NCBI RefSeq assembly: GCF_008831285.2
Contig: NC_045139.1
Coordinates: 21,000,412 to 21,064,411 of the forward strand
DNA length: 64,000 nucleotides
DNA from: Nymphaea colorata
Lineage: Eukaryota; Streptophyta; Magnoliopsida; Nymphaeales; Nymphaeaceae
Reading direction: 5' to 3'
Of the stretch, positions 7,335 to 64,000 are shown piece after piece. Numbering within the stretch: position 1 is the stretch's first letter; every line of letters begins with the position of its first letter. The notes beneath the pieces were generated by a model, which searched no databases, was not told where the DNA came from, and saw only the letters and a program-made list of their open reading frames with translations. A program made the position numbers and the translations under genes.

Positions 7335-7382
<48 letters not shown>

Positions 7383-40044: not shown

Positions 40045-40052
40045 TTTATATA
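40045..40052 (-). promoter_or_regulatory. LTR promoter TATA box
   Basis: TATATAAA on the minus strand in a CTCCTC/CCTCCC pyrimidine context. The same box is in the right LTR at about 63312-63319. Confidence 0.6.
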
Positions 40053-41372: not shown

Positions 41373-41846
41373 TTAAGGAGGACGTGGTTAAAGAAGAGAG
41401 GGAGACATAAATGTCTATCTTTTCCTAGGTTTCTCCTTTATTTCTTCTTGAAAATGACTTTTCTTCAATTAAGTTGAGAGAAAATATTTATTTATTATTT
41501 TTTTTTAAAATGGAGGGGGCGTGGCCCCTGGGGGGGCCTTGACCGCACGGGCTAGGTGGGGCCCACACGTGGGTCCCATGTAGCATTCTAGACTGAATTA
41601 GATCCAATTCTTGGATCTAAGTCAAAATTTGCATTTTGCAATTGGATTTGGATTTCAAATGACATTTGCAATTGTATTTGGACTCGTAATCCTGCATTGG
41701 GATTCGTGTCTCGGGTTAAATTCTCAATTTGAATCTAATTGTTCTTTAGATTCAAAATTGGATTTAAAATTGTAAATTTTCACAATTCTTGTTTGAAATT
41801 TTCACATTGCTTCAATTTTGATGTGGAAAAATTTGGGGTGTTAACA

Positions 41847-42900: not shown

Positions 42901-44178
42901 TCAAGTATAGAATTTTTTGAGATGCAAAGCATTAATTGGATCGGAGATTTCAACCCCATCGACATCAATCAGTCGATAAGAATTGTGAGGTAGAACCTCT
43001 TTGACAACATATGGTCCTTCCCAGTTCGGCGCCCATTTTCCTTTGGGTCTACTCCTGAGTGGAACTATGGATCTTAAAACAAGATCATTTACCTGAAATT
43101 TTCTTTCAATGACTGATTTGGCATAATGTCGGGCAACTCTCTTACGATGGACTTTGGCATGCTCTGCCGCTTGTAGTCTTTTCTCGTCTAAGAGGTCTAA
43201 TTGAGCAAGTCTCTTTTTTTGATATTTGCTAATTGGGAGTTCAATGAGAGCAGCAAATTTCATTGCTGGTTTTTGGACATGTAATGGAAGGACAATTTCC
43301 GTTCCATATACTAATTCTGCTGGTGTAGCATTGGTGGGTGTCCGAATTATGGTTCGATACGCCCAAATTGCATTGTACATTTTCTCGTACCAATCTCGGC
43401 CTGTTTCAACAGTCCTTTCTAAGACACGAATCAAAATCTTGTTGGTTGCTTCTGCCTGACCATTACCTTGAGGGTAATATGGGGCAGAAAAGTGATGTTG
43501 TATTTTGTGTTTGTGACAGAGATTGCGCATTTTCTCATTTTTGAAATGAGTACCGTTATCAGAAACCATATCATGCGGGATGCCAAATCTACACAAAAGA
43601 TTTTTGTGAATGAAGGATACTACGTGTTGTCCTTCGACTGTGTTTAAAGTGATTGCTTCCACCCATTTGGTGAAGTAATCTGTAGCTGCAAGAAAATACC
43701 TGTGTCCATTTGAGGCAGGTGGATTGATTGGACCGACTACATCGAAGGCCCACATGGAGAATGTCCATGGTGAGCTGACCGAATGAAGGTACGCTGCTGG
43801 AGCATGAATTGATGGTGCGTGCAACTGACATTTGATGCATTTCTTGACAAATTGGTGATAGTCTCTTTGCATTGTGGGCCAATAGTACCCTGCTCTGACT
43901 ATCTGCTTGACGAGGGTCTGATACCCTACATGTCCCCCACAAATTCCTTCATGGGCTTCTTGAATGACTTCTAGTGCCTCATTTGCATCGAGACATCTAG
44001 CATATTCTGTGTTGAATCCTCTTCTGTATAGGATGTCGGCTTGAATGAAATATCTTGAAGACATGTGTCTCAAAACTCTTTGCTCTTTTCGAGACATTTC
44101 TGGTGGAAGTGTTTCAGTTTGGAGAAAATCCTTGATGTTCTGATACCATGGTGTTTCTCTACTTTCTGCTTGCAACAC
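42901..44178 (-). CDS. integrase of gypsy copy 1 (intact frame)
   Basis: 425 residues. It inserts element cDNA into the host genome. Seen: an N-terminal zinc-binding HHCC pattern (H..GG HVGY ... CIKCQ, about 82-125), then the catalytic core with Asp in FDVVGP, Asp in VSDNGTHF and Glu in GQAEATNK, the DDE triad. The C-terminal part is basic with a WEGPYVV...Y.L chain typical of gypsy integrases, with no chromodomain. The frame has no stop. It follows the second RNase H by a TAG and about 25 bp, so in the ancestral element it was one pol polyprotein. Copy 2 has the same sequence broken by a one-base deletion. Confidence 0.92.
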   Translation of the reverse strand: MLQAESRETPWYQNIKDFLQTETLPPEMSRKEQRVLRHMSSRYFIQADILYRRGFNTEYARCLDANEALEVIQEAHEGICGGHVGYQTLVKQIVRAGYYWPTMQRDYHQFVKKCIKCQLHAPSIHAPAAYLHSVSSPWTFSMWAFDVVGPINPPASNGHRYFLAATDYFTKWVEAITLNTVEGQHVVSFIHKNLLCRFGIPHDMVSDNGTHFKNEKMRNLCHKHKIQHHFSAPYYPQGNGQAEATNKILIRVLERTVETGRDWYEKMYNAIWAYRTIIRTPTNATPAELVYGTEIVLPLHVQKPAMKFAALIELPISKYQKKRLAQLDLLDEKRLQAAEHAKVHRKRVARHYAKSVIERKFQVNDLVLRSIVPLRSRPKGKWAPNWEGPYVVKEVLPHNSYRLIDVDGVEISDPINALHLKKFYT

Positions 44179-44202
44179 CTATTCTGGTATGACAAAAGAT
44201 GG

Positions 44203-44631
44203 TTATTCGAGTCTTCCAACTTCAAAAGATTTGATAGATTCTCCAGGTTTGAAGGCAATGGTAGAGCCTAAACTGGTTAAACCATCTGTTATTGGGTTAA
44301 ATTCTCTTTTGACATGTAAGAATTGACATTCCTCGAACTGTCTTAAGAGGGAAGCTGCTAACTCTTGATATGGAATCAATTTTTGATCTTTGACTTGCCA
44401 ATCTCCATTGACCTGACTGACAGCTAAGAAAGAATCTCCAAAAATGCTAACTCTCTGCACTTTAAATTTGAGCAACATTTTGAGTCCTTGGATTAGGGCC
44501 TCGTATTCTGCCATATTGTGCGTGCAGGAAAAATTCAATTTGAGAGAGTAAGGAATCATTTCCCTTTCTGGTGTAATGAAAAGTATCCCAATGCCTGCCC
44601 CAACTGTGCTCTTAGATCCATCAAAGTACAT
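44203..44631 (-). CDS. second (archaeal-type) RNase H of gypsy copy 1
   Basis: 142 residues. Seen: YFDGSKSTVGAGIG (first Asp), AEYEALIQGL (Glu), IFGDS (Asp), and VKREFNP.TDGL near the end (last Asp position), the RNase H active-site series. Its place after the standard RT-RNase H and before the integrase is the dual-RNase-H arrangement of the Tat/Ogre group. The frame is separate from the upstream segment (44658-45398), so the polyprotein is interrupted. Confidence 0.85.
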   Translation of the reverse strand: MYFDGSKSTVGAGIGILFITPEREMIPYSLKLNFSCTHNMAEYEALIQGLKMLLKFKVQRVSIFGDSFLAVSQVNGDWQVKDQKLIPYQELAASLLRQFEECQFLHVKREFNPITDGLTSLGSTIAFKPGESIKSFEVGRLE

Positions 44632-44657
44632 CTCCCAAATCGGCTCTGGTTCAGTCG

Positions 44658-45398
44658 TCAGGATTTGCTCATCTGGAAATCATAATTTGTTCTAATTTCT
44701 TCATATAGAGGAAAATCTGCCAATTGGTCTGCAATGGCTTGCCCCTTGATTGATTTTTGTGACACATATTCCAAATCATATTGCATCAGCAAAACCTGCC
44801 ACTTTGCTATCATTCCATTCAGAAATGGCTGTTCGAGGATATATTTGAGTGGATTAAGTTTGGATAAAATTTTAACTTCACAAGCCAATAGATAATGCCT
44901 TAATTTTTGACACATCCACACCAAGGCTAAGCAGGTTTTTTCTATGTGCAAGTAGTTCTTTTCATATTGCACAAATGTCTTACTGATGTAATAAATGGCA
45001 TGTTCTATTCGACATCCTTCTTCATATTGAGCCAGAAATCCACCACAGGCTGAATCGTTAACTGTGATGTAAAGGAGTAGAGGTTCCCCTAAAATTGGAG
45101 GTTTTAAAATTGGTGGGCAAAGAAGATACTTCTTGATCTTTTCGAATGAGGCTTGACATTCATGCCCCCATTCAAATTTGACTCCTTTCCGCAGTAAATG
45201 GTTGAAGGGTTCGCACCTCATGGCGAGATTAGATATAAACCTTCTGATTGACTGAATTCTGCCTTGCATGCTGCGTAGCTCCTTAAGATTTGTTGGGGGT
45301 GACATTTGGATGATCGCCTTTGCTTTGGAAGGATCCATCTCGATTCCCTTTTGCTGACCATAAATCTCAAAAGCTACCGGATTCCACACCAAATACAC
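44658..45398 (-). CDS. RT connection and first RNase H segment of gypsy copy 1
   Basis: 246 residues as an open frame; the recognisable part begins at KGIEMDPSKAKAI (thumb), followed by SMQGRIQSIRRFISNLA, a FEWGHECQASFEKIK block and the RT-associated RNase H (LLLYITVNDSACGG..., HIEKTCLALVWMCQKLRHYL). A frameshift just upstream, shared with copy 2, separates it from the RT core at 45367-46029. The first residues of the open frame overlap the RT end in another frame and are probably not genuine. Confidence 0.82.
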   Translation of the reverse strand: MYLVWNPVAFEIYGQQKGIEMDPSKAKAIIQMSPPTNLKELRSMQGRIQSIRRFISNLAMRCEPFNHLLRKGVKFEWGHECQASFEKIKKYLLCPPILKPPILGEPLLLYITVNDSACGGFLAQYEEGCRIEHAIYYISKTFVQYEKNYLHIEKTCLALVWMCQKLRHYLLACEVKILSKLNPLKYILEQPFLNGMIAKWQVLLMQYDLEYVSQKSIKGQAIADQLADFPLYEEIRTNYDFQMSKS

Positions 45399-46029
45399 AT
45401 TTTTGTGGATTCAATCTAAGTTTGTATTGTAAGAGTCTAACAAAAACTTGAGAAAGAATGTTGATGTGATTCTCCCTTGTTTTTGACTTAATTAGTGGAT
45501 CATCTACATATGCATCCATGATTTGATGCATTTGGTCATGAAAAATAGCTGCCATAGCCCTTTGATATGTTGCCCCAGCGTTCTTCAAACCAAATGGCAT
45601 TACTGTATAGCATAAGGTACCCCATGAGGTTGTAAATGATGTTTTGGCTTGATCTTGAGCTGCCAACTTAATTTGGTTATAACCAGAATATCCATCCATA
45701 AAGGAGAACATAGCGTGACCTGCGGTACTGTCTACCAACAAGTCAATGTTTGGAAGTGGGTAGTCATCCTTTAGTGTAGCCTTATTCAAATCTTTGAAAT
45801 TGATGCAGAGCCGAATTTTGCCATTTTTCTTTAGGACTACCACAATGTTTGCTAACCATTCAGGATAGTCGATTGTTCGGATGAACCCTGCCTTTAGTAG
45901 GTCTTCCAAGCCTTCCTTAACTTGCCCCTCAAGACGAGGGTCTAGTTTCCTCAACTTTTGTTTGATTGGCTTGCATTCTGGTTTCAATGGTAGTCGATGC
46001 TCGACTAATTTCGTATCAAGTCCTGGCAT
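45367..46029 (-). CDS. reverse transcriptase core of gypsy copy 1
   Basis: 220 residues. Seen: GFIRTIDYPEWLANIVVVLKK, INFKDLNKA, PLPNIDLLVDSTAGHAMFSFMDGYSGYNQI (first catalytic Asp), TVMPFGLKNAGATYQRAM, and the YVDD box. This is the Ty3/gypsy order. A TAG lies directly upstream at 46041-46039, where the expected codon of the conserved segment is Trp. The frame ends early at a shift after GVESGSF. Both lesions are also in copy 2. Confidence 0.92.
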   Translation of the reverse strand: MPGLDTKLVEHRLPLKPECKPIKQKLRKLDPRLEGQVKEGLEDLLKAGFIRTIDYPEWLANIVVVLKKNGKIRLCINFKDLNKATLKDDYPLPNIDLLVDSTAGHAMFSFMDGYSGYNQIKLAAQDQAKTSFTTSWGTLCYTVMPFGLKNAGATYQRAMAAIFHDQMHQIMDAYVDDPLIKSKTRENHINILSQVFVRLLQYKLRLNPQKCVFGVESGSF

Positions 46030-46041
46030 GTCCTTATAAGT

Positions 46042-46332
46042 CTATGCAAAGGCTTCTTGATGTTCTTTGAGGAAGTTTATCAACTCTTTTCTTTCTTCTG
46101 CTGAGAGACTTGTTCCAATTTGTAAAATCTTTGGACTCTCTTCCGTGCCAATGTTAATTTCCTCAATCGGATCATTAATCAGAGGTGACGGTTGATCTTG
46201 CTTTCTCATTTGGATGAACTCTGGACATTCTGCCTCAGTGAGTTCTAGATTTATCTCCTTAAAAGCTCTTGATGTTTGATCCTCAGATATCATCCTAAAG
46301 ATTATAAAGAAGTTAGATGAAATTTGAGACAT
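46042..46332 (-). CDS. pol N-terminal linker of gypsy copy 1
   Basis: 96 residues, acidic, ending in the pre-RT motif LSAEERKELINFLKEHQEAFA. It is cut from the RT core by one in-frame TAG. The part before it has no recognisable domain. Confidence 0.7.
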   Translation of the reverse strand: MSQISSNFFIIFRMISEDQTSRAFKEINLELTEAECPEFIQMRKQDQPSPLINDPIEEINIGTEESPKILQIGTSLSAEERKELINFLKEHQEAFA

Positions 46333-46451
46333 TGTTTATGGAAGTAATTTGCATATGCCATTGTATCTTTGAAGGAATTACAAAATGAAGACACTTGGTC
46401 TATTTGAGTACAATGACGACAAAATGACAAAATGATAGCGGTTTTGTTGAT

Positions 46452-46742
46452 TCAAATTGATGGTGAACATCTGCCTATGGTATTGCTCTTGACGAAAGGT
46501 ACTGGCTTGAATTCTTCCTCAACATCCACTTTTTCATAGCTTTGGCACCCCAAGGCTTGAGTGCCTCGTTGTCCTGTCAAAGTAACTGGTTCCAAGATTC
46601 CATTTTCATGTTTGCTAAGGCCAGTAAATGGCTGGTAGCCATGGCGTATGAGTAAATCCAATCCTTTCTCATTCTGGCAGAATTTCTTGAACAACGGATG
46701 ACTTTTGTAACTTGTTTCAGGTTTGGTACCCTTTTCACCCAT
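46452..46742 (-). CDS. G-patch-like linker of gypsy copy 1
   Basis: About 96 residues with GLDLLIRHGYQPFTGLSKHENGI, similar to the G-patch pattern (GY.P..GLGK...GI) seen between protease and RT in some plant gypsy elements; the similarity is partial. One T fewer than copy 2 at about 46734 changes the upstream frame. Confidence 0.55.
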   Translation of the reverse strand: MGEKGTKPETSYKSHPLFKKFCQNEKGLDLLIRHGYQPFTGLSKHENGILEPVTLTGQRGTQALGCQSYEKVDVEEEFKPVPFVKSNTIGRCSPSI

Positions 46743-46795
46743 ACCTGTTTCTTTGGTTTCTGAATGGCCAATCTGCTAAGACTTTGAGATATTTC

Positions 46796-48568
46796 TTACT
46801 CTTTGCAGACTCGAATACTGGGTACCTCAATTGTATATGTTGGTACCGGAATCATTGGGTGTATAAGCCGACTTTCTCTATCCTCTACATAGATGGTTAT
46901 AGAATTCTCGTTGTGAGTCCATTTGACACACTGATGTAGAGTGGAGGGAACTGCATTGGTAGCGTGGATCCATGGCCTGCCAAGCAACAAGTTGATGGAG
47001 GGTTCTATATCCACCACATGAAATAAAACCTGATGATACGCCTCAGAAATATTCAAATCCAGACATATGCATCCTAGGCATGGTTGTCCTGTCCCGTCAT
47101 ATCCATGGATGAAAATTGTGGATGAAGTATCGACTTGTCTTATGCCCAACTCACGAGCTGTTTGTTGTGGACAGATGTTCAGGGTTGCTCCACCATCAAT
47201 TAAAACGTGGGAGACTCTGATACCCCTTGTCACTACCACTATGTGCAAGGCGTCATTGTGCGATGCACCTCCAGTTGGTAGATCTTTATCAGAGAATATG
47301 ATCGGACTATTTTCACATAATTCAAGAGCCCATTCATTTCCCCCGTTAGGGCTAAACCCTCCCTTCTTGACTTCAGGTAGGGGGTCCAATTCATTGAAAA
47401 TGGATCCCAAGGGTTCAGGATCCCATACTTCCAACTTCTGATCGATTTCTATCAGACTGTCTTGTTCAACTGGTCTGATTTGTGCATTGATGGATCCTTT
47501 ATCATGTTTGAAAAGCAATCCAAAGAAATCCAGGGACGCTGTATCCCTTTTGTTTGTCACCATCATTGGATGATTTGTTGAAAATCTGACCATCGAAACT
47601 ATTCCTTTGTCATGTTTAGGAAAAGGATTCTTGAGAATGTCCGGCTGTTCACTGACCTCTTTGATTATTTCTTTGTCAACTACATCTTGCACTATATTTT
47701 TAAGTACAAGGCAGTCTTCTGTATCATGTCCTGGAGCGCGATGAAATTTGCAGAATTGCTCTTTGTTTTTCCCCATCATTGGTGGAGGGTTGGAGACTTT
47801 TGGGAGGAACAGAGTACCTCTTTCGATTAGCATATGCATGACCTCTTCAAAACTTTGTTGTAATGGGGTGAATTTTCTATCGTACCCCCATTCAGGATGT
47901 TTGTTTTTTGTGCCACTACTACTGCCACTAGCTCTGTCCATTACTCCTTTATTCTTGGGATATTCAGACTTTTCTTTCTTGAAAGCTGCAGCGTTGGCCA
48001 CGATGTTGGCTGGAGCATTCTGACTTCTGCTATTCTTCTTTGTATCTTCCCTTACTTTCACCGGGATGACAGCATCAAAAGCTCCATTCTCAATTCTTGC
48101 TTCAATGCATTCTGCCCTCTCAGTGAGATCGATCAAAGACTTGATTGGAGCATTGGAAATGAGACTGTTTAATGGTTGTGTCAAATTGTTTACGATCAAT
48201 CCCAGTGCATGGGATTGAGAGATTGGGTCCCTTATCTTGTTGCAAGAAGACCTCCACCTCTGAATAAAATCTCTCACCTTTTCACCTGGCCTCTGTTTTA
48301 GATAGCATAATGTGGTGATCGTTGGTGCAGTTTCAACGTTTTGAATGAACCTTTCAATGAAAATGTTGATTAACATGTCAAAATTTTTCAATTTCACTGG
48401 GTTGATATGTTCCTGATACCATTGTGCTGCAATTCCTTCTAGGCTTTTGGGGAAACATCGAAAGAGGGCCCTATGATTGTGGCGGAATTTGTAGCATTCA
48501 GCAAAAAACATAGCCAAATGTGCCTTTGGGTCTCCATGGCCATCAAATTTGATAAATTTCTTGGGCAA
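46796..48568 (-). CDS. gag core and protease of gypsy copy 1
   Basis: 590 codons. Residues about 1-180 are a retrotransposon gag domain (FDGHGDPKAHLAMFFAEC, AAQWYQEH, IERFIQN, LCYLKQRPGEKVRDFIQRW). Further on is CKFHRAPGHDTEDCLVLK, the Cys/His-containing segment. An aspartic protease follows at about 450-540: VSHVLIDGGATLNICP, with DGG in place of the usual D(S/T)G, and LLGRPWIH. The frame is uninterrupted and appears identical in copy 2. The true gag start is further upstream in a broken N-terminal part. Confidence 0.9.
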   Translation of the reverse strand: MPKKFIKFDGHGDPKAHLAMFFAECYKFRHNHRALFRCFPKSLEGIAAQWYQEHINPVKLKNFDMLINIFIERFIQNVETAPTITTLCYLKQRPGEKVRDFIQRWRSSCNKIRDPISQSHALGLIVNNLTQPLNSLISNAPIKSLIDLTERAECIEARIENGAFDAVIPVKVREDTKKNSRSQNAPANIVANAAAFKKEKSEYPKNKGVMDRASGSSSGTKNKHPEWGYDRKFTPLQQSFEEVMHMLIERGTLFLPKVSNPPPMMGKNKEQFCKFHRAPGHDTEDCLVLKNIVQDVVDKEIIKEVSEQPDILKNPFPKHDKGIVSMVRFSTNHPMMVTNKRDTASLDFFGLLFKHDKGSINAQIRPVEQDSLIEIDQKLEVWDPEPLGSIFNELDPLPEVKKGGFSPNGGNEWALELCENSPIIFSDKDLPTGGASHNDALHIVVVTRGIRVSHVLIDGGATLNICPQQTARELGIRQVDTSSTIFIHGYDGTGQPCLGCICLDLNISEAYHQVLFHVVDIEPSINLLLGRPWIHATNAVPSTLHQCVKWTHNENSITIYVEDRESRLIHPMIPVPTYTIEVPSIRVCKE

Positions 48569-48774
48569 GTTTTTTATGTGTTTGTCATTTTCGAAGCTTT
48601 CGTAGAAATCTTCGCAAGTGAAATTCCTCTTGTTCTTGCCTTTAAGTTGTACTGCATTTAACTTCTTTTCAACTTCCTGGATTTTTGTTTTCTAGGATTC
48701 TCCCTTCTTCTTTTTCTTGGAAGTTTTCGGTTCTTCCTCACTACTAGGTTCTGTTGTAGCTTCTTCAGAAGAGT

Positions 48775-49014
48775 CTAAACTGCTTGATGAGTACTTTCTT
48801 GTTTTCTTCCTTTCTTTTTGGCTATTTCTGCCTGGGCTTGTTCTTCATTAAACATGATCATGTATTTCCAGAATCTTCTGTATTCCTCAAATTCCGGGTC
48901 ATTTATTTCCAGCTTGGGAGGTGTTTCTGAGGAGGATTCTTCTCCCCTGTCTCCTATAAAAGGTTGATCAAGCTCCATTTCACTCCTCCTACTTTGGCTT
49001 CTAGTTTCAACCAT
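48775..49014 (-). CDS. gag N-terminal piece of gypsy copy 1
   Basis: About 79 residues from ATG 49014 (MVETRSQSRRSEMELDQP), then an acidic EFEEYRRFWKYM segment and a Lys-rich end, stopping at TAG. A neighbouring frame continues (acidic Ser/Glu/Lys) to a second TAG at 48695-48693, beyond which the gag core frame starts. Both interruptions also occur in copy 2. Confidence 0.7.
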   Translation of the reverse strand: MVETRSQSRRSEMELDQPFIGDRGEESSSETPPKLEINDPEFEEYRRFWKYMIMFNEEQAQAEIAKKKGRKQESTHQAV

Positions 49015-49224
49015 AAAGCAGATGTTCACCTTGCAAGAAGAAAAATTGAAAATGTTAGGATGTGAATTGATGAGAAATGACAAATTTTTATTGCATTTAG
49101 AAAGAAAGATGAGAAAACTTAACAAAGTTCAACATAACTTGACAAGACTTGACAAATTTTGGCTTAATGACAATGAACTAGACATGACAATCTAGGACAG
49201 AAGGATAGATGGGTGGACTTCATC

Positions 49225-50401
49225 CTACCATTTTACATATTTGGGACCCATTCTTGGACCAAGGACAAGATACAGGTGAGCAAATAATTCCCAACATTGC
49301 TGGGCATAGGTGTATATCCCGGACCACTCTTCAGTGTCTAGTTCACACTCCACGATGGCTCCTTCCAACTCAATTGGATATGCCTTCCTTTGACGCAGTG
49401 AAAATTGCCTGAGGCAACGCTCTGGATGATATTCAATTATGAAAAACGGTCCCAATAAATGACTTCCCCTGACTGGGTTGTAAGTGTATCTTGATTTGAT
49501 GACCTCTCGATCAAAGAAGTCCCAAATGATGGTGGAGTCATCAACTTCCTCCATCTTTCTGCGATAGTGCTCCATACTGGATAACTGACCGTCTGTGTTT
49601 TGAAAATGACATGATTGTGGCCCACATGTTTGTTGAACCATGCTTGCAGTGCAAAGACACATCCTTCTATCGAGTCTGCATCTCCAATTGAAAATTTGGT
49701 CAACCCTCTGTAAAGGAATGCCAAGGCTGCCATTGTTATGGAAATGTGACGGACTTTGACATGCCCCCATTTTCTGAAGAGGCGAGCTATGCGGAAATCC
49801 ATTATGTATTCTTCATTATTGAAGAAGATAAGACCCATAGTACAAGTCACCATGGAGTTTTTGTACTTGTCTGCAACATTTCTAGATAGTGACGCAGGGT
49901 TGACAAATTGGGAGTATATTTCACCAAGCTCTTGTAGTTGAAGATATTGATGTCCATCTTTCTCTAGAAAAGGCCAACTCCTTTTCCCTGTGAGTTTACG
50001 AATCACTTCTAGAGTTTTGACTTGACCTTGGTTTACAAGGAACTGGTCTTCAATTGGACCTCTTGGGTCACCTTTTGGTTCTGGCAAACCCATAATGTTG
50101 GAGAACTCATCAAGAGTGATTGTCATTTCACCCCATGGAAACCAGAATGTGTTGGTCCTTGGTTCCATCTTTCAGCAATTGCATGGATTAGATTGCCATT
50201 GATAGGTTGTATGGCAAGACTGACTGCATCTTCAAGACCGCAATCCTCTAAGTGATCTGGGAACATACACCGAAAAGTTGGGTACCATGAAAGATACCAC
50301 TGAGGTAGGTAGACTCCACTTGGGATAATGCGAAGTCTGGATCGACCTTGACATGACCCGAATAGGATGTGGTCATATGGGAAGATACTTTCTGAGTCCA
50401 T
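49225..50401 (-). pseudogene. plant mobile domain ORF of gypsy copy 1 (two frameshifts)
   Basis: Equivalent to the intact 392-residue ORF at 58913-60091, split into three frames: 50401-50123, 50168-49437 and 49770-49225. The breaks are one-base losses in G/C runs at about 50160 and 49619. The plant mobile domain motif TNTFWFPWGEMTITLDEFSN and MGLPEPKGDP are preserved in the middle piece. Whether the breaks are biological or consensus errors cannot be told from sequence. Confidence 0.85.
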
Positions 50402-51171
50402 CTAGACAAGAGAAGGTATTAGACTTTGACATGGATTGACCCGAAAGAGACTCGAGAAAGTTTTGACATTGGGTTTGGAACATGGACTTAGAGGCAAAGT
50501 AAAACATCACATGCATCCCAAACAAGCAGTTAATGAAAAATTGATAATGCAACTCCTAGGACTCTTGCCTATATGCATGATTTTGAAAATTGGTCTTGGA
50601 ACCTATGGAAAATAAATGGGTAAATGGTTCCTTATTTATCCAAAATTTATGGTATACCTATATACCAAATTTATGGTACTGGCATGGACTCCTCCAAGGG
50701 TTTTCTAGATTTGGGCTCTCCATTTCTCCTTGTTCACCCATCGATATACCGAGACTATTGTCCGTTTCGGTACTAATGGGGGGACTTCTCAGTCCAATTG
50801 GGTGGTCCAATTGTAAGGCTATATCTTGGATTAATGTCCTAGAAATAGCCCGGCAACATGATGACCGGGATATGATATAGGTAAGGATTTGTTTTTCAAA
50901 ATTCATGAGAAGATGCAAAATAGATGGCTCTATTGCATACATTCCTAAGAGATGGATTTGAAATTTTGAGAGCATACATGGGCTGCATACAATCCTTAAA
51001 TTGAGGAGGGTAGGATAAATTGAAATGAATGAGGTTTCATGAAATCTCCTCAATGTACACTACATGATGTCGGTATGCATTTTTGCGAATTTTTTTTGTG
51101 CAATTGATGTCCGACATTGGTGAAAAATAACTCATATATGATCCAAATAAGTCTTTAGACAAACAATGACG
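50402..51171 (-). other. leader of gypsy copy 1
   Basis: About 770 bp between the primer-binding site and the first ORF. It includes a 96-codon plus-strand frame and a 131-codon minus frame with no domain. A TATGGTATACCTATATACCA-type palindrome lies near 50650. Confidence 0.5.
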
Positions 51172-51189
51172 GTCCCACCGGGTGTGCCA
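51172..51189 (-). other. primer-binding site of gypsy copy 1
   Basis: On the minus strand, TGGCACACCCGGTGGGAC follows the LTR end after two bases; TGG at the start pairs with a tRNA CCA end. The same site is at about 60862-60879. I could not assign the tRNA. Confidence 0.65.
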
Positions 51190-51191
51190 TC

Positions 51192-51790
51192 TGTTCGCAC
51201 CCCACTCTTTTTCAGGAGGTCGAAATGCGAGTCAGCAAAATTCTTTTAAAATTTGGTTTTGAGAAAATTTTCAAGAGAAAGGGATCCGCCCATCGGTACG
51301 AGGTCCAACCATTCCTGCCCCTTTAACAGGGTAATTAGACAAGGACTAAGGATCATTTGGATCATATACGAGTTATTGATCAAATCCTATATGCTTATGC
51401 ATTGAGGTTTTGGATTCAAGAACGAAAAATTCATTTTTTTGAATAATGAATTGAATATTGGGGTTTTCAAGTTTTAAAAACCTTTGTTTTGTTGTTATTT
51501 GAAACACATAATTCTTGAGGATTTTTGAAGATTGGAATTGAGTTCTTTGTTGTGAACTCTAGATGGATGATCATCTTATGATAAAATTGATTTTGAACTC
51601 TTCTTTTGTCAAATCATGTGATTTGTAGAATTCATTCTTTTGAAAAACATAGGTTCCAAATGTTAGAAAACATGTTTGTTTTTCAAATGCACTTTGGCCA
51701 AAAGATTATGAATGCATTGCTGTGTTTTCTTTTGAAGTTAAGTGAGGTTTACAATTCTCATTGCAATATGACTTGGTCACTTTTTGCAAC
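51192..51790 (-). mobile_element. middle LTR of the array, cut by the assembly gap
   Basis: It starts TGTTCGCACCCC and follows the other LTRs for 599 bp. It has an excess of one-base losses in short runs (e.g. TGCCCCTTTAACAGGGTAATTAGACAAGG against TGCCGCCTTTAACAGGGG... in the others). At distinguishing sites it agrees more often with the right LTR than with the left. Confidence 0.85.
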
Positions 51791-51890
51791 NNNNNNNNNN
51801 NNNNNNNNNNNNNNNNNNNNNNNNNNNNNNNNNNNNNNNNNNNNNNNNNNNNNNNNNNNNNNNNNNNNNNNNNNNNNNNNNNNNNNNNNN
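51791..51890. other. assembly gap (100 N)
   Basis: Exactly 100 N. By alignment with copy 1 the left edge corresponds to about 38232 and the right edge to about 42205, so roughly 3.9-4.0 kb is missing if the middle LTR is complete. Confidence 0.95.
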
Positions 51891-52587: not shown

Positions 52588-53864
52588 TCAAGTATAGAAT
52601 TTTTTGAGATGCAAAGCATTAATTGGATCGGAGATTTCAACCCCATCGACATCAATCAGTCGATAAGAATTGTGAGGTAGAACCTCTTTGACAACATATG
52701 GTCCTTCCCAGTTCGGCGCCCATTTTCCTTTGGGTCTACTCCTGAGTGGAACTATGGATCTTAAAACAAGATCATTTACCTGAAATTTTCTTTCAATGAC
52801 TGATTTGGCATAATGTCGGGCAACTCTCTTACGATGGACTTTGGCATGCTCTGCCGCTTGTAGTCTTTTCTCGTCTAAGAGGTCTAATTGAGCAAGTCTC
52901 TTTTTTTGATATTTGCTAATTGGGAGTTCAATGAGAGCAGCAAATTTCATTGCTGGTTTTTGGACATGTAATGGAAGGACAATTTCCGTTCCATATACTA
53001 ATTCTGCTGGTGTAGCATTGGTGGGTGTCCGAATTATGGTTCGATACGCCCAAATTGCATTGTACATTTTCTCGTACCAATCTCGGCCTGTTTCAACAGT
53101 CCTTTCTAAGACACGAATCAAAATCTTGTTGGTTGCTTCTGCCTGACCATTACCTTGAGGGTAATATGGGGCAGAAAAGTGATGTTGTATTTTGTGTTTG
53201 TGACAGAGATTGCGCATTTTCTCATTTTTGAAATGAGTACCGTTATCAGAAACCATATCATGCGGGATGCCAAATCTACACAAAAGATTTTTGTGAATGA
53301 AGGATACTACGTGTTGTCCTTCGACTGTGTTTAAAGTGATTGCTTCACCCATTTGGTGAAGTAATCTGTAGCTGCAAGAAAATACCTGTGTCCATTTGAG
53401 GCAGGTGGATTGATTGGACCGACTACATCGAAGGCCCACATGGAGAATGTCCATGGTGAGCTGACCGAATGAAGGTACGCTGCTGGAGCATGAATTGATG
53501 GTGCGTGCAACTGACATTTGATGCATTTCTTGACAAATTGGTGATAGTCTCTTTGCATTGTGGGCCAATAGTACCCTGCTCTGACTATCTGCTTGACGAG
53601 GGTCTGATACCCTACATGTCCCCCACAAATTCCTTCATGGGCTTCTTGAATGACTTCTAGTGCCTCATTTGCATCGAGACATCTAGCATATTCTGTGTTG
53701 AATCCTCTTCTGTATAGGATGTCGGCTTGAATGAAATATCTTGAAGACATGTGTCTCAAAACTCTTTGCTCTTTTCGAGACATTTCTGGTGGAAGTGTTT
53801 CAGTTTGGAGAAAATCCTTGATGTTCTGATACCATGGTGTTTCTCTACTTTCTGCTTGCAACAC
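52588..53864 (-). pseudogene. integrase of gypsy copy 2 (one frameshift)
   Basis: Same protein as 42901-44178, but a one-base loss in a C-run near 53346 splits it into 53864-53331 and 53628-52588 frames. The zinc-binding region and first catalytic Asp are in the first piece; the SDNGTHF and GQAEATNK parts are in the second. Confidence 0.9.
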
Positions 53865-53888
53865 CTATTCTGGTATGACAAAAGATGG

Positions 53889-54317
53889 TTATTCGAGTCT
53901 TCCAACTTCAAAAGATTTGATAGATTCTCCAGGTTTGAAGGCAATGGTAGAGCCTAAACTGGTTAAACCATCTGTTATTGGGTTAAATTCTCTTTTGACA
54001 TGTAAGAATTGACATTCCTCGAACTGTCTTAAGAGGGAAGCTGCTAACTCTTGATATGGAATCAATTTTTGATCTTTGACTTGCCAATCTCCATTGACCT
54101 GACTGACAGCTAAGAAAGAATCTCCAAAAATGCTAACTCTCTGCACTTTAAATTTGAGCAACATTTTGAGTCCTTGGATTAGGGCCTCGTATTCTGCCAT
54201 ATTGTGCGTGCAGGAAAAATTCAATTTGAGAGAGTAAGGAATCATTTCCCTTTCTGGTGTAATGAAAAGTATCCCAATGCCTGCCCCAACTGTGCTCTTA
54301 GATCCATCAAAGTACAT
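53889..54317 (-). CDS. second RNase H of gypsy copy 2
   Basis: Identical in translation to 44203-44631, with the same active-site series (YFDGS, AEYEAL, FGDS, TDGL). Confidence 0.85.
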   Translation of the reverse strand: MYFDGSKSTVGAGIGILFITPEREMIPYSLKLNFSCTHNMAEYEALIQGLKMLLKFKVQRVSIFGDSFLAVSQVNGDWQVKDQKLIPYQELAASLLRQFEECQFLHVKREFNPITDGLTSLGSTIAFKPGESIKSFEVGRLE

Positions 54318-54343
54318 CTCCCAAATCGGCTCTGGTTCAGTCG

Positions 54344-55056
54344 TCAGGATTTGCTCATCTGGAAATCATAATTTGTTCTAATTTCTTCATATAGAGGAAA
54401 ATCTGCCAATTGGTCTGCAATGGCTTGCCCCTTGATTGATTTTTGTGACACATATTCCAAATCATATTGCATCAGCAAAACCTGCCACTTTGCTATCATT
54501 CCATTCAGAAATGGCTGTTCGAGGATATATTTGAGTGGATTAAGTTTGGATAAATTTTAACTTCACAAGCCAATAGATAATGCCTTAATTTTTGACACAT
54601 CCACACCAAGGCTAAGCAGGTTTTTTCTATGTGCAAGTAGTTCTTTTCATATTGCACAAATGTCTTACTGATGTAATAAATGGCATGTTCTATTCGACAT
54701 CCTTCTTCATATTGAGCCAGAAATCCACCACAGGCTGAATCGTTAACTGTGATGTAAAGGAGTAGAGGTTCCCCTAAAATTGGAGGTTTTAAAATTGGTG
54801 GGCAAAGAAGATACTTCTTGATCTTTTCGAATGAGGCTTGACATTCATGCCCCCATTCAAATTTGACTCCTTTCCGCAGTAAATGGTTGAAGGGTTCGCA
54901 CCTCATGGCGAGATTAGATATAAACCTTCTGATTGACTGAATTCTGCCTTGCATGCTGCGTAGCTCCTTAAGATTTGTTGGGGGTGACATTTGGATGATC
55001 GCCTTTGCTTTGGAAGGATCCATCTCGATTCCCTTTTTGCTGACCATAAATCTCAA
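54344..55056 (-). pseudogene. RT connection and first RNase H of gypsy copy 2 (frameshift)
   Basis: Matches 44658-45398, but an A-run near 54553 has one base fewer, so the frame stops at 54505 after YLLACEVKI and the rest lies in another frame. At its start (about 55037) there is one T more than in copy 1. Confidence 0.82.
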
Positions 55057-55715
55057 AAGCTACCGGATTCCACACCAAATACACATTTTTGTGGATTCAA
55101 TCTAAGTTTGTATTGTAAGAGTCTAACAAAAACTTGAGAAAGAATGTTGATGTGATTCTCCCTTGTTTTTGACTTAATTAGTGGATCATCTACATATGCA
55201 TCCATGATTTGATGCATTTGGTCATGAAAAATAGCTGCCATAGCCCTTTGATATGTTGCCCCAGCGTTCTTCAAACCAAATGGCATTACTGTATAGCATA
55301 AGGTACCCCATGAGGTTGTAAATGATGTTTTGGCTTGATCTTGAGCTGCCAACTTAATTTGGTTATAACCAGAATATCCATCCATAAAGGAGAACATAGC
55401 GTGACCTGCGGTACTGTCTACCAACAAGTCAATGTTTGGAAGTGGGTAGTCATCCTTTAGTGTAGCCTTATTCAAATCTTTGAAATTGATGCAGAGCCGA
55501 ATTTTGCCATTTTTCTTTAGGACTACCACAATGTTTGCTAACCATTCAGGATAGTCGATTGTTCGGATGAACCCTGCCTTTAGTAGGTCTTCCAAGCCTT
55601 CCTTAACTTGCCCCTCAAGACGAGGGTCTAGTTTCCTCAACTTTTGTTTGATTGGCTTGCATTCTGGTTTCAATGGTAGTCGATGCTCGACTAATTTCGT
55701 ATCAAGTCCTGGCAT
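55053..55715 (-). CDS. reverse transcriptase core of gypsy copy 2
   Basis: Same 220-residue translation as 45367-46029, including the YVDD box and the same early stop after GVESGSF. The same TAG precedes it. Confidence 0.92.
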   Translation of the reverse strand: MPGLDTKLVEHRLPLKPECKPIKQKLRKLDPRLEGQVKEGLEDLLKAGFIRTIDYPEWLANIVVVLKKNGKIRLCINFKDLNKATLKDDYPLPNIDLLVDSTAGHAMFSFMDGYSGYNQIKLAAQDQAKTSFTTSWGTLCYTVMPFGLKNAGATYQRAMAAIFHDQMHQIMDAYVDDPLIKSKTRENHINILSQVFVRLLQYKLRLNPQKCVFGVESGSF

Positions 55716-55727
55716 GTCCTTATAAGT

Positions 55728-56458: not shown

Positions 56459-56482
56459 TCTGCTAAGACTTTGAGATATTTC

Positions 56483-58255
56483 TTACTCTTTGCAGACTCG
56501 AATACTGGGTACCTCAATTGTATATGTTGGTACCGGAATCATTGGGTGTATAAGCCGACTTTCTCTATCCTCTACATAGATGGTTATAGAATTCTCGTTG
56601 TGAGTCCATTTGACACACTGATGTAGAGTGGAGGGAACTGCATTGGTAGCGTGGATCCATGGCCTGCCAAGCAACAAGTTGATGGAGGGTTCTATATCCA
56701 CCACATGAAATAAAACCTGATGATACGCCTCAGAAATATTCAAATCCAGACATATGCATCCTAGGCATGGTTGTCCTGTCCCGTCATATCCATGGATGAA
56801 AATTGTGGATGAAGTATCGACTTGTCTTATGCCCAACTCACGAGCTGTTTGTTGTGGACAGATGTTCAGGGTTGCTCCACCATCAATTAAAACGTGGGAG
56901 ACTCTGATACCCCTTGTCACTACCACTATGTGCAAGGCGTCATTGTGCGATGCACCTCCAGTTGGTAGATCTTTATCAGAGAATATGATCGGACTATTTT
57001 CACATAATTCAAGAGCCCATTCATTTCCCCCGTTAGGGCTAAACCCTCCCTTCTTGACTTCAGGTAGGGGGTCCAATTCATTGAAAATGGATCCCAAGGG
57101 TTCAGGATCCCATACTTCCAACTTCTGATCGATTTCTATCAGACTGTCTTGTTCAACTGGTCTGATTTGTGCATTGATGGATCCTTTATCATGTTTGAAA
57201 AGCAATCCAAAGAAATCCAGGGACGCTGTATCCCTTTTGTTTGTCACCATCATTGGATGATTTGTTGAAAATCTGACCATCGAAACTATTCCTTTGTCAT
57301 GTTTAGGAAAAGGATTCTTGAGAATGTCCGGCTGTTCACTGACCTCTTTGATTATTTCTTTGTCAACTACATCTTGCACTATATTTTTAAGTACAAGGCA
57401 GTCTTCTGTATCATGTCCTGGAGCGCGATGAAATTTGCAGAATTGCTCTTTGTTTTTCCCCATCATTGGTGGAGGGTTGGAGACTTTTGGGAGGAACAGA
57501 GTACCTCTTTCGATTAGCATATGCATGACCTCTTCAAAACTTTGTTGTAATGGGGTGAATTTTCTATCGTACCCCCATTCAGGATGTTTGTTTTTTGTGC
57601 CACTACTACTGCCACTAGCTCTGTCCATTACTCCTTTATTCTTGGGATATTCAGACTTTTCTTTCTTGAAAGCTGCAGCGTTGGCCACGATGTTGGCTGG
57701 AGCATTCTGACTTCTGCTATTCTTCTTTGTATCTTCCCTTACTTTCACCGGGATGACAGCATCAAAAGCTCCATTCTCAATTCTTGCTTCAATGCATTCT
57801 GCCCTCTCAGTGAGATCGATCAAAGACTTGATTGGAGCATTGGAAATGAGACTGTTTAATGGTTGTGTCAAATTGTTTACGATCAATCCCAGTGCATGGG
57901 ATTGAGAGATTGGGTCCCTTATCTTGTTGCAAGAAGACCTCCACCTCTGAATAAAATCTCTCACCTTTTCACCTGGCCTCTGTTTTAGATAGCATAATGT
58001 GGTGATCGTTGGTGCAGTTTCAACGTTTTGAATGAACCTTTCAATGAAAATGTTGATTAACATGTCAAAATTTTTCAATTTCACTGGGTTGATATGTTCC
58101 TGATACCATTGTGCTGCAATTCCTTCTAGGCTTTTGGGGAAACATCGAAAGAGGGCCCTATGATTGTGGCGGAATTTGTAGCATTCAGCAAAAAACATAG
58201 CCAAATGTGCCTTTGGGTCTCCATGGCCATCAAATTTGATAAATTTCTTGGGCAA
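56483..58255 (-). CDS. gag core and protease of gypsy copy 2
   Basis: 590 codons with the same translation as 46796-48568 throughout: gag core, Cys/His segment, then LIDGGATLNICP and LLGRPW protease motifs. No difference in 1773 bp is visible in translation, in contrast to the outer LTRs. Confidence 0.9.
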   Translation of the reverse strand: MPKKFIKFDGHGDPKAHLAMFFAECYKFRHNHRALFRCFPKSLEGIAAQWYQEHINPVKLKNFDMLINIFIERFIQNVETAPTITTLCYLKQRPGEKVRDFIQRWRSSCNKIRDPISQSHALGLIVNNLTQPLNSLISNAPIKSLIDLTERAECIEARIENGAFDAVIPVKVREDTKKNSRSQNAPANIVANAAAFKKEKSEYPKNKGVMDRASGSSSGTKNKHPEWGYDRKFTPLQQSFEEVMHMLIERGTLFLPKVSNPPPMMGKNKEQFCKFHRAPGHDTEDCLVLKNIVQDVVDKEIIKEVSEQPDILKNPFPKHDKGIVSMVRFSTNHPMMVTNKRDTASLDFFGLLFKHDKGSINAQIRPVEQDSLIEIDQKLEVWDPEPLGSIFNELDPLPEVKKGGFSPNGGNEWALELCENSPIIFSDKDLPTGGASHNDALHIVVVTRGIRVSHVLIDGGATLNICPQQTARELGIRQVDTSSTIFIHGYDGTGQPCLGCICLDLNISEAYHQVLFHVVDIEPSINLLLGRPWIHATNAVPSTLHQCVKWTHNENSITIYVEDRESRLIHPMIPVPTYTIEVPSIRVCKE

Positions 58256-58461
58256 GTTTTTTATGTGTTTGTCATTTTCGAAGCTTTCGTAGAAATCTTC
58301 GCAAGTGAAATTCCTCTTGTTCTTGCCTTTAAGTTGTACTGCATTTAACTTCTTTTCAACTTCCTGGATTTTTGTTTTCTAGGATTCTCCCTTCTTCTTT
58401 TTCTTGGAAGTTTTCGGTTCTTCCTCACTACTAGGTTCTGTTGTAGCTTCTTCAGAAGAGT

Positions 58462-58701
58462 CTAAACTGCTTGATGAGTACTTTCTTGTTTTCTTCCTTT
58501 CTTTTTGGCTATTTCTGCCTGGGCTTGTTCTTCATTAAACATGATCATGTATTTCCAGAATCTTCTGTATTCCTCAAATTCCGGGTCATTTATTTCCAGC
58601 TTGGGAGGTGTTTCTGAGGAGGATTCTTCTCCCCTGTCTCCTATAAAAGGTTGATCAAGCTCCATTTCACTCCTCCTACTTTGGCTTCTAGTTTCAACCA
58701 T
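58462..58701 (-). CDS. gag N-terminal piece of gypsy copy 2
   Basis: Same 79-residue piece as 48775-49014, with the same TAG, frame change and second TAG before the gag core. Confidence 0.7.
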   Translation of the reverse strand: MVETRSQSRRSEMELDQPFIGDRGEESSSETPPKLEINDPEFEEYRRFWKYMIMFNEEQAQAEIAKKKGRKQESTHQAV

Positions 58702-58912
58702 AAAGCAGATGTTCACCTTGCAAGAAGAAAAATTGAAAATGTTAGGATGTGAATTGATGAGAAATGACAAATTTTTTATTGCATTTAGAAAGAAAGATGA
58801 GAAAACTTAACAAAGTTCAACATAACTTGACAAGACTTGACAAATTTTGGCTTAATGACAATGAACTAGACATGACAATCTAGGACAGAAGGATAGATGG
58901 GTGGACTTCATC

Positions 58913-60091
58913 CTACCATTTTACATATTTGGGACCCATTCTTGGACCAAGGACAAGATACAGGTGAGCAAATAATTCCCAACATTGCTGGGCATAGGTG
59001 TATATCCCGGACCACTCTTCAGTGTCTAGTTCACACTCCACGATGGCTCCTTCCAACTCAATTGGATATGCCTTCCTTTGACGCAGTGAAAATTGCCTGA
59101 GGCAACGCTCTGGATGATATTCAATTATGAAAAACGGTCCCAATAAATGACTTCCCCTGACTGGGTTGTAAGTGTATCTTGATTTGATGACCTCTCGATC
59201 AAAGAAGTCCCAAATGATGGTGGAGTCATCAACTTCCTCCATCTTTCTGCGATAGTGCTCCATACTGGATAACTGACCGTCTGTGTTTTGAAAATGACAT
59301 GATTGTGGCCCCACATGTTTGTTGAACCATGCTTGCAGTGCAAAGACACATCCTTCTATCGAGTCTGCATCTCCAATTGAAAATTTGGTCAACCCTCTGT
59401 AAAGGAATGCCAAGGCTGCCATTGTTATGGAAATGTGACGGACTTTGACATGCCCCCATTTTCTGAAGAGGCGAGCTATGCGGAAATCCATTATGTATTC
59501 TTCATTATTGAAGAAGATAAGACCCATAGTACAAGTCACCATGGAGTTTTTGTACTTGTCTGCAACATTTCTAGATAGTGACGCAGGGTTGACAAATTGG
59601 GAGTATATTTCACCAAGCTCTTGTAGTTGAAGATATTGATGTCCATCTTTCTCTAGAAAAGGCCAACTCCTTTTCCCTGTGAGTTTACGAATCACTTCTA
59701 GAGTTTTGACTTGACCTTGGTTTACAAGGAACTGGTCTTCAATTGGACCTCTTGGGTCACCTTTTGGTTCTGGCAAACCCATAATGTTGGAGAACTCATC
59801 AAGAGTGATTGTCATTTCACCCCATGGAAACCAGAATGTGTTGGTCCTTGGGTTCCATCTTTCAGCAATTGCATGGATTAGATTGCCATTGATAGGTTGT
59901 ATGGCAAGACTGACTGCATCTTCAAGACCGCAATCCTCTAAGTGATCTGGGAACATACACCGAAAAGTTGGGTACCATGAAAGATACCACTGAGGTAGGT
60001 AGACTCCACTTGGGATAATGCGAAGTCTGGATCGACCTTGACATGACCCGAATAGGATGTGGTCATATGGGAAGATACTTTCTGAGTCCAT
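58913..60091 (-). CDS. plant mobile domain (MAIN-like) protein carried by gypsy copy 2, intact
   Basis: 392 residues, one open frame, upstream of gag and in the same orientation. Residues about 1-60 are CFPDHLEDCGLEDAV-type lead-in; about 65-330 match the plant mobile domain: AIAERWNPRTNTFWFPWGEM, TITLDEFSNIMGLPEPKGDP, then MGLIFFNNEEYIMDFRIARLF, TMAALAFLYRGL and VFALQAWFNKHV. Family knowledge: this domain occurs in host MAIN/MAIL proteins, which act in genome stability and silencing, and in several plant transposons. It is the first ORF after the primer-binding site, the slot of the extra ORF1 in Ogre-type elements. Its role in the element is unknown. No zinc finger or phosphatase domain is fused to it. 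Copy 1 has two one-base breaks. Confidence 0.88.
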   Translation of the reverse strand: MDSESIFPYDHILFGSCQGRSRLRIIPSGVYLPQWYLSWYPTFRCMFPDHLEDCGLEDAVSLAIQPINGNLIHAIAERWNPRTNTFWFPWGEMTITLDEFSNIMGLPEPKGDPRGPIEDQFLVNQGQVKTLEVIRKLTGKRSWPFLEKDGHQYLQLQELGEIYSQFVNPASLSRNVADKYKNSMVTCTMGLIFFNNEEYIMDFRIARLFRKWGHVKVRHISITMAALAFLYRGLTKFSIGDADSIEGCVFALQAWFNKHVGPQSCHFQNTDGQLSSMEHYRRKMEEVDDSTIIWDFFDREVIKSRYTYNPVRGSHLLGPFFIIEYHPERCLRQFSLRQRKAYPIELEGAIVECELDTEEWSGIYTYAQQCWELFAHLYLVLGPRMGPKYVKW

Positions 60092-60861: not shown

Positions 60862-60879
60862 GTCCCACCGGGTGTGCCA
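60862..60879 (-). other. primer-binding site of gypsy copy 2
   Basis: Same sequence and spacing from the LTR as in copy 1. Confidence 0.65.
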
Positions 60880-60881
60880 TC

Positions 60882-63800
60882 TGTTCACACCCCACTCCTT
60901 TTTCAAGGAGGTCGAAATGCGAGTCAGCAAAATTCTTTTAAAATTAGGGTTTTGAGAAAATTTTCAAGAGAAAGGGATCCGCCCGTCTGTACGAGGTCCA
61001 ACCATTCCTGCCGCCTTTAACAGGGGTAATTAGACCAAGGACTAAGGATCATTTGGATCATATACGAGTTATTGATGCAAATCCTATATGCTTATGCATT
61101 GAGGTTTTGGATTCAAGAAACGAAATTTATTTATTTATTTTTTTGAATACATGAATTTGAATATTGGGGGGTTTTCAAGTTGGTTTAAAAACCTTTGTTT
61201 TGGTGTTATTTGAAACACATAATTCTTGAGGATTTTGAAGATTTGGAATTGAGTTCTTTGTTGTGAACTCTAATGATGATGATCATCTTATGATCAAAAT
61301 TGATTTTGAACTATTCTTTTGTCAAATCATGTGATTTGTAGAATTCATTCTTTTGAAAGAACATAGGTTCCAAATTGTTAGAAAACATGTTGTTTTTCAA
61401 ATGCACTTTAGCCAAAAGATTAAGAATGCATTGCTTGTGTTTTCTTTTGAAGTTAAGTGAGGTTTACAAATTCTCATTGTAATATGACTTGGTCACTTTT
61501 TGCAACTCAAATTTGAATCACTTAATTTCTTGAGAATGTGCATGTGGTGCTATTGATTTTGAGTGAAAGTGAATGCATGAAACGAGAAGGGAAACTATAT
61601 GGAACATTCATTCTTCTCTCTCTCATAATCTCTCAAGATTCATTCATATGAAACATACATTATTCACTCTCTCATAATCTCTCAAAGTCCATATTGCATG
61701 TCATACAATCTATGCATGAAGATTGATTAAAATGTATGACTTTCTCTATAGGTGCTCATTATATGATTAAGCACATGAATTAGAGATGTAGTCCATAAGC
61801 TTGAGGCTTGACATAAAATTATCAAAATGATGAAAATATATAAATAATGCCAAGTTCAATCTTTGAAATGGATGGGAGACGTGGATGACATCCACTTTTG
61901 TCTCAAAATAACTAAAAATCAGACCTTGTGTTGATTTAAATAGCTGAAAATTGTGGACATTGATTCCAATAAGGACTTGTTTCTTAGATAGAAACAATGA
62001 GTTTTTCAAATCTATTCAAAATCCAGATTTCGTAGTAATGAAATCATCAACTCCTTTGGATGATTCTAGGATAGTTGGTATTTCAAATATGTAAACTTTA
62101 ACATTCTTAAACCAATTCCTATGAAACATAGTCTGATTTCAACAACATACGTACATCTTACGTATGGGTTTGCTGAAATTAAGTAAAAATGAAATGAAAA
62201 TGATTTCATAGCCTTGCACTATGAAAATCAATCAAAACGATCATTCTTCTTAAAAACCAGTTTGGAAACGTATTCCAACCTGATTTTAAGAGAAGAAAAA
62301 TTATTTTCAACAAGAGATTGGACACATGTATGTATATATATAACAACGTATATATATATACATACCTTACTCTTCAAAATGAAATTTTATCAAGGGACCG
62401 CAAGACTCATGATTCATGATGATTCATGGCTGGGTTCTTTTATGTAGGAAGATTGAAAACTTGTTTCAAATCTTCCCTACTACCATTGATTAATTAAATT
62501 GAAAGACATGAATCAAAATGACTGTGAATAAGAAAGAAAATAAAACAATGCTCAAGCTTATTCGTCCATCATTTCGCCATGCAAGGGTGGATCACATTCA
62601 TAAGAACGTATCCATCCCTTATAGGCATTTTCATCATACACGATGCAGCAAAATCACTCTCTCACCGTGGGATTCTCTCATGGTAGGGAGTTCAAAATGG
62701 TATTAAGTTGGTTCCTTTGAAAGGGACGTGGCCTTGGGGCTCATTTTAAAATTTGATACGAGGGTTCATATTTAAGAAAAACCGACATATGCATGCATTA
62801 ACATGTACATTGAAGCGTACATTTCTCTTAGTTGGACACCATTCCCACCCGTAAGCAAATGAAAATAAACCCTCCCATGAATTGCTGGAATTAAAATAAA
62901 TCAACAATAAGCTAAAGTAGAAGAGAAGTGAGTTAAAATCACCTACCTTGTGATCGGTCTTGATGCTTGTCCTTCGCCTTCACTTGTTTTCTAACTCAAG
63001 CAATCCTAAGCAAGAATCCAACCGTGGATTCAAGCTTAGCAAAGCTAGAATAAGAAATAGCTTGCTTGCTAGAATTTGGAGTGGTAAAGAGGGCTTCTCA
63101 CCACGAAAATCCTAAGTAAGGGTTTACTTAAGCACCATAACTTAGCAAAATCAATGAGAAGAATAGAAGAAGAGAATGGGAGAAAAAGGGGAAGAGGGCT
63201 TGGACGAACCTCTTCTCTCTTCCTTGGCTTCTCCCTCCTAGCTCCTTGGCTGCAGCAATTTGATAGAATGCTCCAAAATTTCGTCCTCCCCCTTGATGGC
63301 CAAAGGGAGGTTTATATAGAGGAGGAGGTGGGTTCAACCACCTTCTTAACTCACCTTGGGAACTTGCTTAAGACTTTGGGGACTTGTAAAATGAGTTAAA
63401 TAGACTTTAAAGGCTCTAATTGACCATTTCTCAGCCCATTTCCATGAGCTAGGTGGGCTGGGCTAGGTTTGGTCAACATGGGTTCAGACCTAGGTGACCA
63501 TCTTGACCAAAATTTTATACGAAAATGCCCTTGCACAGGGTTTTGCCCTTATTTTGTACTTTTTATTTATTTTTTGTTTAAAATCGAGCTTGTAAGGTTA
63601 AAACCTAGTTACTAAGCTCCAAATGCCATTGAATTATAATAATTCAATTTAAATTTTAATAAAATTCGAAAATTTTATCAAATTTGGTTCGAAAAGGGTA
63701 TTTTCGTCCAAAACTTGATTGAAACTGGATTTCAACTGAATCAAACTTTTGTTTGAAATATTCAATTTAAATTTGGTATTTGATTCTTGTATTTGACAAA

Positions 63801-64000
63801 TTCAAATGTTTATTTGCCTTCCATAAACCAATTTAGGCTTTTTAATCTTAATTTGACCGCAGAATGGCAAAATTGTCCAAATTGATCAATTTCGACCAAT
63901 TGACCAAAGTCAAAGCTCATTTGCGAGTAGTTTGACTTTATTGGAGGTAATTTGATAAATTTGTGTTAAGAAAGCTCTTAATTGAGCTAAATTGTACTTT
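60882..64000 (-). mobile_element. right (5') LTR of the array, running off the window
   Basis: It starts TGTTCACACCCC and aligns with 37609 to about 40724 of the left LTR. It includes the conserved U5-side block at about 60975-61045 and the TATA box at about 63312-63319. The part that would show presence or absence of the MITE lies beyond 64000. Confidence 0.9.

Follow-up and report, generated by a model that had tools for sequence, protein, structure and literature searches.

A plant mobile domain gene under purifying selection in a Tat/Ogre-type retrotransposon of Nymphaea colorata, and its predicted similarity to VANC21

Results and Discussion

The 64-kb window of the Nymphaea colorata genome (the whole stretch of DNA that was analysed) contains a Ty3/gypsy retrotransposon with a gene for a plant mobile domain (PMD) protein. 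This gene is inherited within the family, has a fixed place upstream of gag and is under purifying selection, which shows that the element relies on its PMD for something. The encoded protein probably shares the fold of VANC21, as judged from structure prediction. VANC21, which is encoded by the MULE transposon VANDAL21 of Arabidopsis, binds DNA and counteracts silencing. The explanation which we favour as a whole, a degenerate Tat/Ogre-type copy with a selected PMD that has the VANC21 fold and would work in a VANC-like manner, has in our view an even chance of being correct.

Classification of the element

The element is almost certainly a PMD-carrying member of the Tat/Ogre type. It contains the extra RNase H beside the one after the reverse transcriptase (RT) that is a feature of the Tat clade, and it has the order RT, RH, aRH, INT of Ogre and Retand elements, which is also present in other copies. 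The provisional assignment to Ogre rather than to Retand rests on the extra open reading frame coding for the PMD. With Ogre, a non-chromovirus lineage of Ty3/gypsy elements (OTA/Tat), it shares this frame, the second RNase H between RH and INT and the very long LTRs, and a comparison by domains and layout gave no feature that distinguishes the two.

In Ogre as well as in Retand elements the second RNase H is reported to lie between RH and INT, and PMDs were described in 57% of the Ogre elements (Neumann et al. 2019, PMC6317226). A primer-binding site (PBS) for tRNA-Arg was also reported for Ogre elements (PMC9289625). PMDs were found associated with MULE and later with Gypsy elements (PMC5418596), and a later survey lists the PMD as the commonest atypical domain in the consensuses of plant LTR elements (PMC9289625). 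The remark in the earlier note that plant transposons can carry such domains agrees with these reports of PMDs in Gypsy elements (PMC6317226, PMC5418596), which likewise mean that the arrangement is known; the earlier suggestion that it deserves description is not supported. The element of the window is a further member, in a basal angiosperm. The function of the PMD is described as unknown (PMC8616336, PMC9289625), even though the domain is reported from more than half of the Ogre elements and from silencing proteins of the host.

Structure of the element and of the assembly

All coding parts lie on one strand in the order PMD, gag-protease, RT, RNase H, a second RNase H of the RVT_3 type and integrase (Table 1). 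The two RNases H and the 4-kb LTRs that had been proposed for this element were both recovered. The LTR termini form the inverted pair TGTTAACACCCC / GGGGTGTGAACA; the outer end of the 3' LTR was set by comparison with the 5' LTR, because its final bases read GCGAAAA. The two LTRs differ at 72 of 3117 compared positions (2.3%; K2P 0.0235), which at substitution rates of 1.3e-8 and 7e-9 would correspond to an age of 0.9-1.7 million years. No tRNA was found within the window.

Table 1. Features of the element and of the assembly in the window.
Feature	Position	Strand	Basis
3' LTR, 4238 bp	37609..41846	-	LTR comparison
TTTGAC motif cluster in LTR, 9 in 360 bp	40527..40886	-	0/500 Markov sequences with as many
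LTR insert, about 400 bp, LTR positions 475-871, ends GGGGCGTTTG.../...CAACCAAACGCC	40976..41372	-	another copy's LTR without the insert
Putative second assembly of the same element, repeats 51898-61506 (unmerged contig overlap, 9.6 kb)	42211..51790	-	self-alignment
100-N assembly gap	51791..51890	.	sequence
Integrase, H2C2 zinc finger and rve core	52591..53864	-	Pfam
Second RNase H, RVT_3 (E 2.8e-16), between RH and integrase	53892..54365	-	Pfam
First RNase H, RT_RNaseH_2 (E 4e-24), RT_RNaseH (E 4.9e-16)	54508..55059	-	Pfam
Reverse transcriptase, RVT_1 (E 1.2e-29); stop codon directly upstream in both contigs	55056..55727	-	Pfam
Gag-protease, ATG near 58701 (counted from translation), main frame 58378-56486	56486..58701	-	Pfam
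Remainder of the family PMD frame, 10 further codons and stop, behind the nonsense codon	58880..58912	-	comparison with other copies
PMD open frame	58913..60091	-	Pfam PMD across residues 55-370
PBS-like sequence TGGCACACCCGGTGGGAC, starts at 60879, two bases from 5' LTR inner end	60862..60879	-	read from sequence
5' LTR, inner 3119 bp; extends past the window	60882..64000	-	LTR comparison

Most of the element is present twice in the window, on both sides of an assembly gap, and we read the 9.6-kb repeat as a single locus that was apparently assembled twice. Over its 9619 columns, the alignment of 42211-51790 with 51898-61506 has 15 mismatches as well as 39 gap openings, many of which lie where the left contig ends. 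In the stretch between 60641 and 51901 the contigs differ by 11 single-base indels and by no substitution, whereas the LTRs of the element differ at 2.3% of their positions, which argues for one locus. A tandem duplication or two nested elements were considered and rejected, as the repeat extends up to the edge of one contig, starts at most 7 bases into the next at the 100-N gap and shows indels without any substitution in the stretch just mentioned. Two of the indels disrupt the PMD frame in the left contig and another one disrupts the integrase in the right contig, while the integrase frame is open in the left contig (42904-44178). An unmerged overlap with such single-base indels calls for caution with any frameshift that this assembly shows in a repeat.

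The copy itself is degenerate, because frameshifts and stops in gag and pol occur in both contigs. The N-terminal part of gag contains one frameshift and one stop in both of them, and stops are also found in both between the end of the gag-pro frame and the start of the RT piece (at 56021 if its N-terminal piece is included). Two separate ORFs, one for gag-protease and one for RT-RH-INT, are a feature of Ogre, but in a degenerate copy such stops may be mere lesions.

By eye, a G-patch-like stretch (GYQPFTGLSKHENGILEP) can be recognized in the frame past the protease (56141-56482). The G-patch is another extra domain reported for Gypsy elements (PMC9289625).

The PMD frame

The frame consists of 392 codons followed by TAG. 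The Pfam profile search assigned it to PF10536 (plant mobile domain) with an E-value of 9.9e-27 and 94.4 bits, the curated cut-off of Pfam being 34.9; the alignment covers positions 1-322 of the 347 profile positions. A second match was obtained to DUF7745 (E 1e-10). The earlier claim of a 392-residue PMD-type frame on the element strand between PBS and gag was therefore correct, and the profile search which had been suggested as a check gave a significant result. The TAG at 58913 is a nonsense codon in comparison to most copies, and among the matches listed a frame of 403 codons is usual. The same stop is carried by one other copy (L043), and the closest protein from Nymphaea thermarum reads past this position. 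No PMD relatives were confirmed in the viral and prokaryote contig collections searched.

Copies of the family and related species

The genome of N. colorata contains at least 119 PMD matches, of which 40 copies were examined, 20 long ones (the best-ranked of the element type) and 20 with the PMD only. The PMD is followed by gag on one strand in all 20 long copies, the presence of the PMD being preselected here since these copies were found through it. Further downstream, 19 of them have RT, 17 have the second RNase H and 15 have an integrase on the same strand. The PMD is intact in 28 of the 40 copies, which were picked by PMD score, and a comparison with the intactness of gag and pol is unusable for that reason.

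The nearest proteins are from N. thermarum (77-95% identity, main subfamily) and Victoria cruziana (49-60%). Among 128 N. thermarum proteins, 11 gene models match both the PMD and the gag of the window element; two of these have a more distant gag (72% and 51%), and the gag alignment of P0047 is only 39% over its length. The joint occurrence of PMD and gag in the long copies and in the N. thermarum gene models indicates that the family carries the PMD as a constant component.

Downstream of one element copy (L027, 7900-8781) lies a second, very different PMD-like stretch with 28.7% identity over 317 columns, in which no open frame of 150 codons was found.

Selection on the PMD

Purifying selection across the family copies, the second check suggested by the earlier note, is clear. 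The pooled pN/pS of the PMD drops with increasing divergence, from 0.58 (359 pairs, dS<0.03) over 0.42 (203 pairs) and 0.32 (110 pairs) to 0.21 (148 pairs, dS>0.2). In comparisons of 4 divergent copies with 21 copies of the main family, including that of the window, the median dN/dS is 0.17 for the PMD (84 pairs, with values of 0.14-0.22 against the divergent copies), 0.12 for gag-protease (84 pairs) and 0.09 for RT (80 pairs). The pairs behind the PMD pN/pS and dN/dS values share branches and are non-independent, and gene conversion among copies may contribute to them. By segment, pN/pS of the PMD ranges from 0.13 to 0.42, with a low pS in residues 111-200 that is perhaps caused by recombination.

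Neutral simulations point in the same direction. Six relatives with 44-53% identity contain no stop where 11-19 would be expected, and their replacements are milder than in 400 of 400 simulations. Proteins in databases are free of stops by construction, so that the argument from stops rests on the existence of full-length frames at all. Among seven close relatives from N. thermarum, replacements are milder in four, for which no more than 6 of 400 simulations were equally mild (no more than 10 under AT-biased mutation), but not in the other three.

It might be argued that the PMD is a fragment of a host MAIN-like gene which was caught by chance and is functionless for the element. Plant elements are known to carry extra frames of doubtful function (PMC6317226), the frame in the window ends in a nonsense codon, and the three N. 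thermarum relatives just mentioned have replacements no milder than under neutrality. Against this stand the low dN/dS in comparison to the divergent copies, the intact distant relatives, the PMD in all 20 long copies, even if these were found by their PMD, and the old split from host-type PMDs described below. On dN/dS, the pN/pS trend and the simulations we reject such a functionless passenger, which is extremely improbable. With a significant family match and purifying selection, neither of the two refutations named in the earlier note applies.

A selected PMD could also be an accessory protein that handles the element RNA, during its export, in the control of its splicing or in its packaging, comparable to accessory proteins of retroviruses. 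The PMD is encoded close to the 5' end of the genomic RNA, its order before gag is fixed and the selection on it is close to that on gag-protease; roles of that kind were moreover proposed for some additional, there antisense, frames of plant LTR elements (PMC7264820). We consider this explanation unlikely, since host PMD proteins take part in silencing genes and in condensing heterochromatin (PMC5418596), and since the closest solved fold, as found by structure prediction, is that of a DNA-bound protein.

Relationship to host PMD proteins

In trees of 39 and 28 proteins, the element-type PMDs from Nymphaea, Victoria and further contigs group apart from the MAIN-LIKE proteins with a support of 100/100. 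Both groups have the Pfam domain in common, at an identity of about 25%. The phylogenetic check proposed earlier thus separates the element PMDs from host MAIN-type proteins, and a recent capture of a Nymphaea host gene, which was also considered, receives no support from the trees; element and host-type PMDs were separated long ago. Gypsy-encoded and apart from MAIN-LIKE proteins, the element PMDs resemble in this respect the PMD-A1 and PMD-A2 clades, which are reported to be encoded only by Gypsy elements and are distinct from PMD-C with MAIN and MAIL (Ikeda et al. 2017, PMC5418596), and they may belong to one of these two clades.

Two further PMD frames of the same genome, L001 (C10:4434361) and L002 (C9:3161004), are found outside the element group on very long branches. 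Their placement is unsure (AU p 0.381 for one alternative; one of two L002 frames was used), and they are candidates for host genes or for another type of transposon.

Predicted fold and possible function

The predicted shape of the PMD matches VANC21 with 7-8% identity over the aligned fold. Foldseek alone gave no significant match for the PMD, searches of PDB sequences with the PMD protein and two profiles no relevant one, and Pfam DUF1985, the domain of VANC, was not detected in the PMD of the window at E<=10. Our literature search found no publication that ties the PMD to the VANC fold or to DUF1985; a paper on structure 9lnj, which lay outside this search, may make the link. Besides the low identity and the missing DUF1985 match, the carrier is different, an LTR retrotransposon here and a DNA transposon (VANDAL MULEs) in the case of VANC. 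VANC lifts the DNA methylation of its own family, and the PMD of the window may do likewise.

That element PMDs counter host silencing was already suggested in print (PMC8616336), and the fold match lends this suggestion new, although indirect, support. A VANC-like anti-silencing function is a serious possibility, which we place somewhat short of probable. The PMD would be translated from the genomic RNA of the element, go back into the nucleus and bind motif-rich noncoding DNA of its own family, probably in the long LTRs and the leader, and would thereby keep the copies of the family unsilenced or reopen silenced ones. Host MAIN and MAIL, in which the same domain is used for silencing, would then be relatives with the opposite job.

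Alternatively, the PMD could act as a decoy which, by mimicry of MAIN/MAIL, enters the MAIN-MAIL1-PP7L complex or blocks it; silencing would then be weakened without any binding to element DNA. MAIN, MAIL1 and PP7L of Arabidopsis interact, and the silencing of transposable elements depends on them (PMC7156037); the element PMD has the same domain as the host proteins, and the published suggestion of counter-silencing would also suit a decoy. However, the deep separation from the MAIN-LIKE proteins at such low identity argues against mimicry, and the fold match points to a DNA-binding protein; we regard the decoy as improbable.

VANC proteins bind arrayed short motifs in the noncoding DNA of their elements, and the TTTGAC cluster in the LTR was examined as a possible target of the PMD. 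Comparable clusters were found in three other LTRs, with 8 motifs in L053 (0/500 Markov sequences), 5 in L055 (1/300) and 7 in L056 (0/300), while the internal region of L014 contains no comparable one. The conservation of the motifs is ordinary. Within the cluster their columns are no better kept than the neighbouring ones (one-sided p 0.23 for L055 and 0.07 for L056), and 11 of 22 motifs are kept in L055 as well as in L056, compared to fractions of 0.48 and 0.51 for composition-matched words. This in-silico check of four LTRs is neutral with respect to a PMD target. TTGAC(C/T) is also the W-box of WRKY factors, and a stress promoter is therefore an equally good reading of the cluster.

Tentatively, and with still less confidence than for the anti-silencing function itself, PMD and the DUF1985 of VANC might form one superfamily of DNA-binding proteins of chromatin state that occurs in both classes of plant transposons. 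The retrotransposon PMDs would be its element-specific anti-silencers and MAIN/MAIL its sign-reversed members. If the fold is that of VANC, PMD proteins become directly testable as sequence-specific DNA binders, and whether MAIN/MAIL derive from transposons becomes a question about an anti-silencing transposon protein that changed into a silencer.

Other observations

The LTR insert has inverted ends (GGGGCGTTTG/CAAACGCC) and by eye looks like a MITE. A fragment of a related element is located on the opposite strand at 4809-8249; it comprises a 3' internal part and part of an LTR, is about 78-84% identical in pieces and seems to be without the insert, because one match stops at 41373, the edge of the insert. 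The window further contains a frame of 679 codons (10871-12910), which by eye resembles acetolactate synthase.
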